A stretch of 64,000 bases of DNA. Origin: Psychrilyobacter piezotolerans (GTDB lineage: Bacteria > Fusobacteriota > Fusobacteriia > Fusobacteriales > Fusobacteriaceae). The position numbers were made by a program, and so were the translations under genes. Where the stretch lies: assembly GCF_003391055.1 (NCBI RefSeq), contig NZ_QUAJ01000002.1, forward strand, positions 1 through 64,000, read 5' to 3'. The notes below the pieces were generated by a model that had not been told where the DNA came from, did not search any database, and saw nothing but the letters and a program-made list of their open reading frames with translations. The first letter of the stretch is position 1, and the number at the start of each line of letters is the position of its first letter. Shown here piece after piece: positions 1-4,313 of this stretch.

Positions 1-2762
1 TCATTTAATTCTAAATTTTTTATTTTAACGTTTTCAAAATTTATATAACCGCAATTACAATTAAAAAAACTTATGTTAATTAAATTTGAATTTTCAAAAT
101 TAGAGTTATATAAATTGCAATTTCTAAATGAAATATTTTTAAATATACTATTTGAAAAATCTACCTCCCCTAAATCTAAATAATTAATTGCATTCCATCT
201 TTTAAAAAAAACATCATTGTCTTGATGATTAAAATAATTATCATTATCTTTATGATTAAAATCTAAACCATTGAATAATTGATTTCCCCATTCAGGTGAA
301 CTTGATCCATGAGTATAATTTCTATCTTTCCACAAAGAAATTATATTTTCCATTTTTAATTTTTTGTTAAAAAACTTCTCTTTGTTTTTATCATTATATA
401 AAGTATTTCCAACTAGTAGTGCAATCCATTTATCAATTTTTAAATTGGAATTAACCATATAATTGTTTATTGAATAAATTTCTTCATTAAACAATGATGA
501 ATTTTGTTTCCCCTTAACAAATAAATTTGTATTATCTGATTCAAATAATTCATACATTGTATCTATAATCTTTTGAATTGTTTTACCTTTTATTGGCCAA
601 TCCCGTAACATTTCTTCATTAATGTGTGATAAATATTCATCACACATGTATTTTTCATTCCATGTATAGTCTATGTGCGATGAATATAAATTGTTGTTTT
701 GATCAATTCCTAAAGATGCAATTATTGGGAGGAGAAGCTTTCTTTTTTCTAAGATTTCTTCATTAGCCTCTTCAACTGAAGATTCTCTTAACATAATCAT
801 TAAATTTGTGAGAAATTCCATTGTCTGATCAGTTGGTTCTCCGAGCGTTAACTTCATCCCTAATTCTTCAGCATTTGACTGTTTGTCTAATGAGTACTTA
901 ATTATAGCTTTTAAATAATATTCGGCTAATAATATTTCAGCAAATGATTGATGATGAAAGTGAAGTGTATTTCCATCTTCACCAAAATAAGAATGAGATA
1001 AAAATTGAATATCTTTAATCTTTTTAAATTTTTCAAGGACAACATTATCATTATCATCAATTTTATTACCTTTAATGGTTCTGCAAATATCAGATTTTTT
1101 CAAAATTCCTTGATTTCCAGTATGTCTTTCTACCATCCATAAAGCTGAAATTGCATGTAAAATATTTCTGAATTCAAATTCTTCTTTTAAGCTAACGTTA
1201 TAATTAATGTCCTTAACGTGCTTAGCATCTTTTGTCAATAAATTTAAAAATGTCATATAAATACCTATTTTTCCATACTTATTAAAATCAATATTTTTTA
1301 TTATCAATTGAAACATCATATATGAAAAAATAGGACGTCTTAGTTCATCAGCTGAAATCACTTGATCTTCTATTAACATTTTAGCAATGTTAATTTTTTG
1401 ATCTTCTAAGCTATCGATTATTTTTTTTGAAAAATTAGTATATTTAGATTTATCCTGAACTATTTTCTTTAAATTTTTATAAATATAATTATTTACCTGT
1501 TCATTTTTAAATCCTAGAATAGATAAATAATTTGGTATAGGACAACAACCCTCTTTTATTGTTTCTTTTGGCTTATATTTACATAAATGACTCTTTAATC
1601 CTTCATTAATTGGTCTAGAAGTAATAATTATTCTATTTTTTCGACAGATTGACATATCAAGCCGTTGAATCCTACGAATACTTTCAATAACCTTATCAAT
1701 ATTTTCTGCCCTTAATTCTCCGCTTTCATCTAACCCGTCAAATAAAAATACATATTCTCTTTTTTTATAGTGTTCTTCTGATATGTCTATTTGATATTTT
1801 TTTATCAAAAAATTGGAAACTAAGCCTAATTTACTGTCATCTGAATACTGGCTAAATTCTCTTAAATTAATATAAATTGGGAATTTTCCTTCCATACATT
1901 CAAGATATTCTTTTGCCAATTGAGAAGCAAGATATTTCATAAATACTGATTTTCCTTTCCCAAAATCAGCTATAATAAATAATATCTTATCTAAATTATC
2001 TTCATCATTTTTAAAATATTCTTCAATTAACTCGTTAATTTCAGAATATTCATTTTCATCAATTTCATTATGAGGTGATTTATAATTAGTTACCTCTACC
2101 CATTTGGCATATGTTGTTTCATATTCTAAATTTTCATCTTCTTGAAAACCAATTTTTTCAAGCTTTTTAATATCTTCTAATAAATCTAATTCTTTTTCTT
2201 TTAACCAAAAATTTTCAATTGAAATTTGATGATTATTAAAACTATCCCCAAATTTAGTTTTTATCTGTTCTTCAATATTAGTATTAAAATGCAGTATAAA
2301 TTTACTCATTACTTCATCTGACTCACCCAATTCATTAAATATATTTTTATAAATAGATTTAATTTTTAAAATGATTGGATGTTTTGTATAATCAAATCTT
2401 AATGTATTTAATAATTCTGTTGATTTATCAGTATCATTTTTAAAAGCGGTTTTAATTTTTTTTAACACTTCACCATTTAAAACCTTAAACCGAATATCAT
2501 CATTAACGTACTCAAAAGATTCTTTTCCTTGTGTTAATGCAGCCATTAAATATGTATTCCGTCCAAACTCTTCCAATTTATTTTTTTCAACTGCTTTAGT
2601 ACATTCATTAATTAAGGGTTTTGTAAAAACCTTTAAAATCAATCCAGTGATTCCATTAACATCCTTAAGTAACGTATCACCCTCTTCTCCAATATAATTA
2701 ATTACCCCATTTAATAAATCAGGTATTTTTTCCAAATAATGTGTCACCATTTCTTTCTTCAA
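1..2762 (-). CDS. NACHT-domain STAND NTPase with C-terminal pentapeptide-like repeats (partial, 3' end outside window)
   Basis: An open frame of about 920 codons runs from a TTG at 2762 to the left edge with no stop, so the C terminus is missing. The TTG has a GGGGG Shine-Dalgarno tract 8 nt upstream; the next in-frame start is the ATG at 2750, which is too far from it. The first ~255 residues look all-helical and match no domain I recognise. The NTPase core follows: Walker A-like ADFGKGKS near residues 264-271, Walker B-like FLFDGLDE near 337-346, and a FHHQSFAEILLAEYY motif of the kind that ends NACHT modules near residue 600. The last ~60 visible residues (865-920) repeat every five residues in an N-x-x-F/L pattern (for example NCNLYNSNFENSNL), as in pentapeptide-repeat solenoids. 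Bacterial NACHT proteins of this layout include antiphage proteins (bNACHT). Defence here is inferred; no partner gene is visible. The gene is visibly more A+T-rich than its neighbours. Confidence 0.85.
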   Translation of the reverse strand, partial: MKKEMVTHYLEKIPDLLNGVINYIGEEGDTLLKDVNGITGLILKVFTKPLINECTKAVEKNKLEEFGRNTYLMAALTQGKESFEYVNDDIRFKVLNGEVLKKIKTAFKNDTDKSTELLNTLRFDYTKHPIILKIKSIYKNIFNELGESDEVMSKFILHFNTNIEEQIKTKFGDSFNNHQISIENFWLKEKELDLLEDIKKLEKIGFQEDENLEYETTYAKWVEVTNYKSPHNEIDENEYSEINELIEEYFKNDEDNLDKILFIIADFGKGKSVFMKYLASQLAKEYLECMEGKFPIYINLREFSQYSDDSKLGLVSNFLIKKYQIDISEEHYKKREYVFLFDGLDESGELRAENIDKVIESIRRIQRLDMSICRKNRIIITSRPINEGLKSHLCKYKPKETIKEGCCPIPNYLSILGFKNEQVNNYIYKNLKKIVQDKSKYTNFSKKIIDSLEDQKINIAKMLIEDQVISADELRRPIFSYMMFQLIIKNIDFNKYGKIGIYMTFLNLLTKDAKHVKDINYNVSLKEEFEFRNILHAISALWMVERHTGNQGILKKSDICRTIKGNKIDDNDNVVLEKFKKIKDIQFLSHSYFGEDGNTLHFHHQSFAEILLAEYYLKAIIKYSLDKQSNAEELGMKLTLGEPTDQTMEFLTNLMIMLRESSVEEANEEILEKRKLLLPIIASLGIDQNNNLYSSHIDYTWNEKYMCDEYLSHINEEMLRDWPIKGKTIQKIIDTMYELFESDNTNLFVKGKQNSSLFNEEIYSINNYMVNSNLKIDKWIALLVGNTLYNDKNKEKFFNKKLKMENIISLWKDRNYTHGSSSPEWGNQLFNGLDFNHKDNDNYFNHQDNDVFFKRWNAINYLDLGEVDFSNSIFKNISFRNCNLYNSNFENSNLINISFFNCNCGYINFENVKIKNLELN

Positions 2763-3114
2763 ACGTTCTTCCCCCTTATAATTAACATTTATAACATAAT
2801 CTTGAAATTTTCTAAAGTTTTTATTTTTTTCGACTTATTAATTAATACAATACTTTATTTTCTTCACTTAGGTTGAGACTTTACAGTAGCCTAATATTCT
2901 TTTACAATTCCCTTAATAAGTAATAGGTTAATCATAAACATATTAACTCTTTTTTAGGTTTTCTGCAATATTTTTAATTATTTTTTATGGTAGGGTGCAT
3001 TATTTATAGACATAGCTTCCTCAATCTTTTATTTGAATCATTCTTATATATAGCACTCCTAAAAATACTCATGACATTGGTGGAGTAGCTTTTTAGCCTT
3101 CTTCCGAGACCTAC

Positions 3115-3187
3115 TTCCCCCACTTATCCACATTTTAAAATTTTACTCAATTGAGTAAATTTTAAATACTCGTGGATCAAGGGGGAA
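3115..3187. repeat. 73-bp imperfect inverted repeat with an exact DnaA-box sequence
   Basis: The arms start TTCCCCC and end GGGGGAA and meet at CTCAA|TTGAG (3150/3151). The inner part (TTTAAAATTTTACTCAA and its complement) is nearly perfect, with a one-base bulge. TTATCCACA at 3124-3132 is an exact match to the DnaA-box consensus and lies in the left arm. Only one such box is seen, so this is not evidence of an origin. Confidence 0.6.
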
Positions 3188-3230
3188 CAAAAGAGGGCGT
3201 TACTCTTTCGAAAATTTTCCTCCTCCCTCC

Positions 3231-3272
3231 ACTTTAGTTTCTTTAACGAAGAGAAACTATAGAAAGGAAGAG
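3231..3272. repeat. Dispersed palindromic element, family A, copy 1
   Basis: An inverted repeat AGTTTCTTT...AAGAGAAACT is followed by ATAGAAAGGAAGAG. The same layout recurs at 5968-6007, 13718-13760, 30416-30458 (reverse) and 62808-62845, with a worn copy at 19051-19074. All copies are intergenic. Confidence 0.6.
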
Positions 3273-3344
3273 TGGTTAAAGTCCTCCTCTCCTAATTTAG
3301 GAGAGGAGTTAGAGGTGAGGTCTGAGAGAAATCCACCAAAAAAA

Positions 3345-3378
3345 AAGCGACTAAATCCTCATTGGAATTTAGCCGCTT
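3345..3378 (-). terminator. Intrinsic terminator after the short trhP-like gene
   Basis: Read on the minus strand, AAGCGGCTAAATTC pairs with GATTTAGTCGCTT across a short loop and runs into a long T tract (complement of the A run at 3338-3346). It begins about a dozen bases after the stop codon of the gene ending at 3390. Confidence 0.85.
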
Positions 3379-3389
3379 TTTATTATTTT

Positions 3390-4313
3390 CTATATTGATC
3401 TCTTACCTTCTATCCCAAAGTAGAAACCCCTTGTAAATTCCCTTGGTGAAGCTTTTTCCAGGTCTTCCAACCACTCTTCTTTCACATCAAAGTTTCCACT
3501 ATAGAAATCATTGATCCCCTCATTATAAACTCTAACCGATGCAGTTAAGTAGTAGTTATCCATCATTCTTCCTTCAATTCTTATGGCATCTACGCCTAAT
3601 TCTAAAATTTTATCTAAATTTTCAATGGAGCATAAATCCTTTGAATGAAAGATGTGGGTCCCATGCTCATCTTCAAATACCGGCATATATTCACCGGGTC
3701 TTGTTTGCTCTTCTACCGAATATTTCCACTGTGCATTGTTGGAATCCAGGTTTTCTTCCTTAGAAGACATATAGCTGGTCAGCAGACTCCTGCCAGAGGT
3801 AGACATATGCATGGCTCCGTGAACATAGATCTCCAACTCTATTTCAGGTACTTTTTCCCTAATATCTTTTACATTTTCAATGGATATCTCTCTGGCTAAG
3901 ATAACTCTCGAAGCTCCTAACTTCTGCCACATCCTCACAGCTCTAAAGTTGGTGTTGCTTACCTGAGTTAATACACTTATCTTTAAGTTAGAAAACTCTC
4001 TCACAACCTGAAAAACCCCTAAATCTCCTACCATAACACCATGAACACCGATGGTCTCCAAATATTTAACATATTCATCTAAACCTTCTAATTCATGGTT
4101 ATGGGGGATAATATCCAGTGTTACCCATATTTTTTTACTGTTTTTTTTTGCATAACTTACAGCTTCTTCCAGTTCTTCATCTGTAAAATTATGACTCCCT
4201 GTTCTCAGGTTATATTTTTTCCCGCCTAATAATACACTGTCAGCTCCACTTTCAAAAGCTAACTTTAATTTTTTCATATTCCCTGCTGGGGCTACTAATT
4301 CTGTTTTTCTCAT
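3390..4313 (-). CDS. U32-family TrhP1/YrrN-like protein lacking the conserved cysteines
   Basis: A 307-residue protein clearly homologous to the 414-residue neighbour at 4453-5697 over its whole length (shared LVAPAGN, HNF, IIPHN, LGASRVILAREIS and IEGRM motifs). It stops where the neighbour begins its C-terminal beta domain. The four cysteines of the neighbour (174, 181, 197, 201) are replaced here: the first by His169, the second by Ser176, the third about Asn193, the fourth absent. U32 proteins of the TrhP/RlhA type use these cysteines for an Fe-S cluster in prephenate-dependent hydroxylation of tRNA U34 or rRNA. From memory, Bacillus subtilis has a similar short/long pair, YrrN (309 aa) and YrrO (422 aa), both needed for 5-hydroxyuridine in tRNA. 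The short form may therefore be a non-catalytic partner; this is inference. The frame is intact, with no sign of decay. Confidence 0.8.
   Translation of the reverse strand: MRKTELVAPAGNMKKLKLAFESGADSVLLGGKKYNLRTGSHNFTDEELEEAVSYAKKNSKKIWVTLDIIPHNHELEGLDEYVKYLETIGVHGVMVGDLGVFQVVREFSNLKISVLTQVSNTNFRAVRMWQKLGASRVILAREISIENVKDIREKVPEIELEIYVHGAMHMSTSGRSLLTSYMSSKEENLDSNNAQWKYSVEEQTRPGEYMPVFEDEHGTHIFHSKDLCSIENLDKILELGVDAIRIEGRMMDNYYLTASVRVYNEGINDFYSGNFDVKEEWLEDLEKASPREFTRGFYFGIEGKRSI

Follow-up and report, generated by a model that had tools for sequence, protein, structure and literature searches.

A NACHT-type STAND gene of Psychrilyobacter piezotolerans with a family-specific N-terminal domain and a short, capped pentapeptide tail

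The left edge of a 64,000-nucleotide stretch of Psychrilyobacter piezotolerans DNA (the window; G000:C2:1–64000) holds one long reading frame that had been proposed, from the sequence alone, to be an immune gene encoding a NACHT-type STAND NTPase. This raises the questions of what kind of protein the gene encodes, how it is distributed, and whether it might protect the cell against phage.

The gene and its NACHT core

The long frame at the left edge proved to be a 920-residue open reading frame at 3–2762 on the minus strand, beginning with TTG at 2762, with no in-frame stop and with its left end open. That boundary is the end of the contig, not a cut made by the window. The start is supported by the four relatives described below, because they begin MKKE, MKKK, MRKD and MSKN in the alignment column of the TTG. 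The sequence AAGGGGG lies 8 nt upstream of it, at 2771–2777. A pseudogene reading was rejected, since internal stops are absent and the relatives are intact. The features are as follows.

3 to 2762, minus strand: NACHT STAND NTPase gene, residues 1–920; the 3' end is lost at the contig end
2771 to 2777, minus strand: ribosome-binding-like site AAGGGGG, read from sequence
1998 to 2762, minus strand: N-terminal domain, residues 1–255, family-specific, predicted mostly helical, without Pfam match
1467 to 1967, minus strand: NACHT domain, residues 266–432 (Pfam PF05729, 2.4e-11; Foldseek NOD2, NLRC4, NLRP3)
1947 to 1970, minus strand: Walker A ADFGKGKS, residues 265–272
1725 to 1748, minus strand: Walker B FLFDGLDE, residues 339–346
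915 to 959, minus strand: conserved post-NACHT H-x-S-F-x-E motif FHHQSFAEILLAEYY, residues 602–616
180 to 809, minus strand: helical segment leading from the NACHT module to the repeats, residues ~652–861; conservation is lowest just before the repeats
3 to 176, minus strand: about 11 pentapeptide repeats, residues 863–920 (Pfam PF00805/PF13599)
2763 to 3373, no strand: a run of short interspersed repeats that separates the NACHT gene from trhP, with many copies across the genus
3390 to 4313, minus strand: U32 peptidase (TrhP-like), the conserved flank, a little downstream of which synteny with four congeners breaks off

The Pfam NACHT model matches residues 266–432 with E = 2.4e-11 (44.2 bits, cut-off 26.7), and it matches all five members of the family, with E values of up to 1. 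ADFGKGKS conforms to the Walker A pattern GxGK[S/T] and FLFDGLDE to the Walker B pattern DxxDE. In alignments with unrelated bacterial NACHT proteins there is little or no variation at G268, G270, K271, D342, D345, E346, H604 and E609, and the same goes for the columns of the FHHQSFAEILLAEYY motif and of the intact arginine R383. The Walker A-like ADFGKGKS, the Walker B-like LFDGLDE and the NACHT-end motif first picked out by eye thus all lie in columns conserved among unrelated NACHT proteins.

An AlphaFold2 (AF2) model built with 21 related NACHT proteins is of modest confidence, with a mean pLDDT of 51.9 and most of the core at 60–80. Comparison of this model with the PDB using Foldseek placed NOD2, NLRC4 and NLRP3 in the lead, with E values down to 6.2e-11, and the predicted fold is that of an NLR-like NACHT domain. 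The assignment to the NACHT/STAND class is upheld by the Pfam match above cut-off and by these fold matches; placement in a non-STAND family, named by the sequence-only reading as the result that would count against it, is not what the structure search gave. We infer that the protein binds ATP and oligomerizes in response to a ligand.

Genomic site and the missing C-terminus

The gene is poorer in G+C than its surroundings, with GC = 0.243 and GC3 = 0.164 against 0.352 ± 0.026 and 0.333 ± 0.029 for 12 neighbors, in keeping with the A+T-richness originally remarked upon. Its own genome gave no second NACHT match. NACHT scored above cut-off in 3 of 98 genomes of the phylum and in none of seven congeners, and the only one of the 98 with a close member of the family was the query's own. 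Universal syntenic conservation across the phylum, the other outcome named as fatal to an immune reading, was accordingly not seen.

The trhP pair beside the gene is 84–92% conserved in four congeners, and the similarity ends just past the second gene. What follows trhP varies (names read from translations). In G006 and G007 an ArsB-like transporter comes directly, with a macro-domain gene and groEL after it; G005 has an aminotransferase and then the ArsB-like transporter, and G004 a peroxiredoxin. The variable site 3' of 3390–4313 in these congeners is represented by loci L145, L146, L147 and L148. The check that had been suggested, whether close genomes lack the gene at this site, is answered by G004–G007, which carry other genes there. 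With absence from all seven congeners and a variable trhP-flanking site, the gene has the accessory status claimed for it. Judged from its sequence and surroundings, it is a horizontally acquired gene that has remained intact.

The interval from the gene to trhP (2763–3373) contains short repeat blocks of roughly 40–100 bp that recur dozens of times across this genome and its congeners. They look like REP- or MITE-like families of the genus.

It had been advised to obtain the sequence left of the window. The contig ends there, and the C-terminus was located on another contig, C45. The transporter directly after trhP in G006 and G007 is the one that flanks the far side of the NACHT gene in the query genome, and a search of that genome with the sequence from G007 led to the transporter–macro–groEL block on C45. 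At the start of this contig is an open frame of 93 residues (2–283) that stops at TAA, followed by a PLP-enzyme/acetyltransferase fusion gene (447–1796) and then by the transporter. A profile built from the C-termini of three relatives matched the 93-residue frame (E = 8e-4) and no other of the 356 frames. Since synteny and homology agree, we place the 3' end of the NACHT gene on C45, with the last 93 residues of the protein probably encoded at G000:C45:2–283. The pieces on C2 and C45 do not overlap when aligned to the relatives, and any gap between them seems to span from a few to a few tens of residues. The complete protein, pieced together in this way, would be about 1,015 residues long. 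The gene adjoining its 3' end (L157 447-1796 (-), G000:C45), in which a PLP-dependent enzyme is fused to a GNAT acetyltransferase, is missing at the matching place in G006 and G007.

The whole protein runs from the N-terminal domain through NACHT and its downstream module to the helical segment, and then to about 11 pentapeptide repeats and the C-terminal domain. Pfam Pentapeptide matches residues 863–899 above cut-off (E = 2.4e-6), and PF00805 scores 27.5 bits against a cut-off of 20.2, so that the five-residue periodicity noticed earlier is that of pentapeptide (Rfr) repeats. An NCBIfam scan returned pentapeptide matches only, all below cut-off. The domain of ~90 residues after the repeats is common to the full-length relatives and has no Pfam match. 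A pentapeptide tail is indeed present, and its presumed role as the sensor needs qualifying: because there are only about 11 of them, followed by a further ~90-residue domain, the repeats need not do the sensing alone. The stack being short and capped, the helical segment and the C-terminal cap may contribute to the sensing surface. A separate 188-residue pentapeptide-repeat protein occurs in the same genome (L004, G000:C15:77694-77861) and in several congeners (L007, L008, L010); it is unrelated to the NACHT gene beyond the repeat.

Relatives of the protein and the N-terminal domain

A full-length relative was first found in a Campylobacteraceae genome (L102), on searching the complete genomes from which some of the 56 NACHT loci described below come, and then three in 397 genomes of the class; the four close relatives (L102, L105, L106 and L107) correspond to 4/397 Campylobacteria genomes sampled. 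They are 40–45% identical to the query over residues 1–817, N-terminus included, and share its architecture over the whole length. Three are complete and L105 is cut by a contig end. Their genomic sites differ from that of the query, and in two of the four GC is higher. Each stands alone amid unrelated genes, in four differing contexts: beside an MFS transporter and a LUD-domain gene, a formate-dehydrogenase-like operon and a RelB-like gene, a UbiA gene, or an RlpA-like gene and a Y1-transposase gene. The last of these, a Y1-type IS200-like transposase gene of REP-associated appearance (L110 979-1452 (-)), is directly beside the L102 homolog; together with the repeat cluster beside the window gene it may hint at how the gene moves. 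The genome of L102 also encodes a second, unrelated NACHT protein on another contig (L063 4094-6568).

In every pair within the family pN (0.25–0.41) is lower than pS (0.62–0.77). On this sequence comparison the family is under purifying selection, whose strength is approximate because synonymous sites are near saturation. Conservation, expressed as the share of the commonest residue, is 0.72–0.84 in NACHT and the module that follows and 0.42–0.54 near the tail, with the lowest values at residues 841–880. Such a gradient fits a switch with a diverging sensor.

Scans with the single protein of genome contigs, viral contigs, plasmids and phages gave no relative, a relaxed plasmid search gave remote NACHT matches only, and the family profile found nothing in viral contigs. 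Four other large groups were sampled, where absence in the sample is not absence from the group. With a loose first look, homologs numbered 0/369 in the class of a Gammaproteobacterium and 0/341 in that of a Lachnospiraceae genome; in the class of a Bacteroidia genome (1/345) and the phylum of a Desulfococcaceae genome (3/297) there were NACHT-level matches only, and no full-length relative. One Bacteroidia protein, L160 4192-7200 (-), has NACHT followed by a leucine-rich-repeat-looking stretch, an NLR-like layout in a bacterium.

When 85,000 species genomes were scanned with an alignment of three proteins that left out the tail, 56 NACHT loci were obtained, among which there was no close relative of the query. 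Pfam NACHT matched 53 of these proteins, Pentapeptide_4 13 (E ≤ 1e-4), NCH2 twelve, and NNH3 and Mrr_cat seven each. The layout of N-terminal domain, NACHT and pentapeptide repeats is common in cyanobacteria, and occurs also in an alphaproteobacterium, a Lachnospiraceae genome, Acidobacteria and a Desulfococcaceae genome. The sequence-only reading had regarded the combination of NACHT with pentapeptides as uncommon. This does not hold, since 13 of 56 bacterial NACHT proteins from several phyla have it in a set whose collection made no use of the tail. The cyanobacterial NACHT–pentapeptide proteins are likely the ones behind the seven NNH3 matches; the NNH3 (PF22735) N-terminus was found in neither the query nor its homologs.

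The N-terminal domain is another matter. It had been described as an unrecognized domain of ~255 residues, and so it remains. In all five members Pfam gave nothing beyond noise over residues 1–~255, NNH models included, and matches to IZUMO and E1B_19K (E = 0.08–0.3) were set aside as noise. A sequence search of solved structures with the domain gave no match; weak hits to ribonucleotide reductase in the PDB (E = 0.02) were put down to chance. Comparison by hhalign with 54 other NACHT N-termini found none related, the best probability being 2.0% where a leave-one-out positive control gave 99.9%. The AF2 model of the N-terminus alone had a pLDDT of 38.7, too poor to use, and the domain is predicted from such poor modeling to be mainly helical. 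There is no obvious transmembrane segment (best 19-residue hydropathy 0.7–1.2), and no catalytic motif was recognized. Among everything searched the domain was found solely in the query genome and the four Campylobacteria genomes. The protein belongs to a small NACHT family that spans two phyla and is represented by complete members in three Campylobacteria genomes; its N-terminal domain and C-terminal cap are both unassigned. Residues 1–255 are presumed to be an effector or signaling domain.

Proposed function and comparison with known systems

The protein has a three-part build, with the family-specific domain in front, the intact NACHT NTPase and its downstream module in the middle, and the helical segment, short pentapeptide stack and cap at the end; it is under purifying selection, and occurs patchily and in solitary form. 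We consider it fairly likely that the gene, acquired horizontally, encodes by itself a STAND switch like those of other bacterial NACHT proteins. Its most likely role, by analogy, would be that of a self-contained, ligand-gated abortive-infection switch. In an uninfected cell the protein would be closed, with ADP bound. Its variable C-terminal half, made up of the helices, the pentapeptide stack and the cap, would bind a component of the invader, or else a host factor that infection has altered. Exchange of the nucleotide would then lead to oligomerization through NACHT and so to clustering of the N-terminal domains, which would perform or recruit an activity that stops growth. As no catalytic motif is recognized, an enzyme is no more likely than non-enzymatic action, whether by disrupting membranes or by homotypic recruitment. 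It is a more tentative suggestion, which we would put below an even chance, that the N-terminal ~255 residues are a new class of NACHT-coupled effector without a recognizable active site, and that the stack and cap form a compact sensor of invaders.

The switch is supported by several lines of evidence. NACHT is identified by both HMM and fold, and Walker A and B, R383 and H-x-S-F-x-E are intact and conserved. Close homologs in another phylum are solitary in four unrelated contexts, GC3 is low and the site is variable. The distribution (1/98 in the phylum, 4/397 in Campylobacteria, solitary, at a variable site) is that of a patchy, horizontally moving gene. The conservation gradient, the excess of synonymous over non-synonymous change in all pairs, and the tripartite logic of bNACHT proteins (PMC12169576) all point the same way. 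Against it we count that no PADLOC defense model matches the query, that its NCBIfam matches are below cut-off, and that no defense genes were identified beside it in the stretches read. The PADLOC model PDC-S60 is matched by 12 of the 56 other NACHT proteins.

There are transcription regulators among STAND proteins, and a solitary gene with no identified defense neighbors could be a regulator of a cellular process, such as a MalT-like signal sensor or a stress regulator, rather than an immune gene. We think this unlikely. No HTH or other DNA-binding domain was found, and absence from congeners, presence in 4/397 Campylobacteria and neighbors that differ each time do not fit a fixed circuit.

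Alternatively the N-terminal domain might be an adaptor rather than an effector, with the protein needing a distant partner gene or host effector. Adaptor-type domains are described in STAND conflict systems (PMC8195603; PMC10907252), and the five N-termini have neither a recognized catalytic motif nor a Pfam match. Yet neither the homolog loci nor that of the query have a conserved neighbor, which leaves no dedicated partner encoded close by, and we regard the adaptor as distinctly improbable. Very improbable is a pentapeptide stack that is itself the active part, a NACHT-gated DNA mimic acting on gyrase or another DNA-binding protein in the manner of MfpA or Qnr: there are weak matches to both (phmmer 0.0011 and 0.5; NCBIfam Qnr 2.5e-4, far below cut-off), but the Qnr model scores 20.9 bits where an equivalog needs 240, and the tail has about 11 repeats only, is followed by a separate C-terminal domain, and is among the least conserved parts.

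Returning to the switch, we compare it with known systems. The animal NLRs NOD2, NLRC4 and NLRP3 have the NACHT/winged-helix fold in common with the query (Foldseek E down to 6e-11), but their LRR sensors and CARD/PYD effectors are not found in it. The cyanobacterial NACHT–pentapeptide proteins (Nostoc WP_159402666.1, L083, L085, L086, L075 and L097) are like the query in the pentapeptide tail, and NACHT and the downstream module (HxSFxE, then an 'LTxEIVxFL' segment) are colinear; over this region hhalign gives 99.3% against the query alone and 92–93% family against family. Their tails are much longer, and their N-termini are unrelated: the colinear alignment had suggested homology there, which was rejected at an hhalign probability of 1.1%.

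By analogy with such systems, the gene is probably an antiphage suicide-type gene of a known kind, with a family-specific working end. Should it prove antiphage, a single gene would make up a system with a new effector, and with so short a tail pentapeptide stacks would become easier to study as STAND sensors; otherwise it joins the many bacterial NACHT genes that lack characterization. The bNACHT proteins are proven antiphage factors, with a C-terminal sensor, a central NACHT switch and an N-terminal effector (PMC12169576). Like the query, bNACHT25 (PMC12169576) is a single gene with NACHT at the center, intact Walker motifs, a presumed effector at the N-terminus and a presumed sensor at the C-terminus. 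The two differ at their ends: bNACHT25 has a PD-(D/E)XK nuclease N-terminus and an NCH1 C-terminus, whereas the query has an N-terminus without a Pfam family and a tail of pentapeptide repeats and cap.
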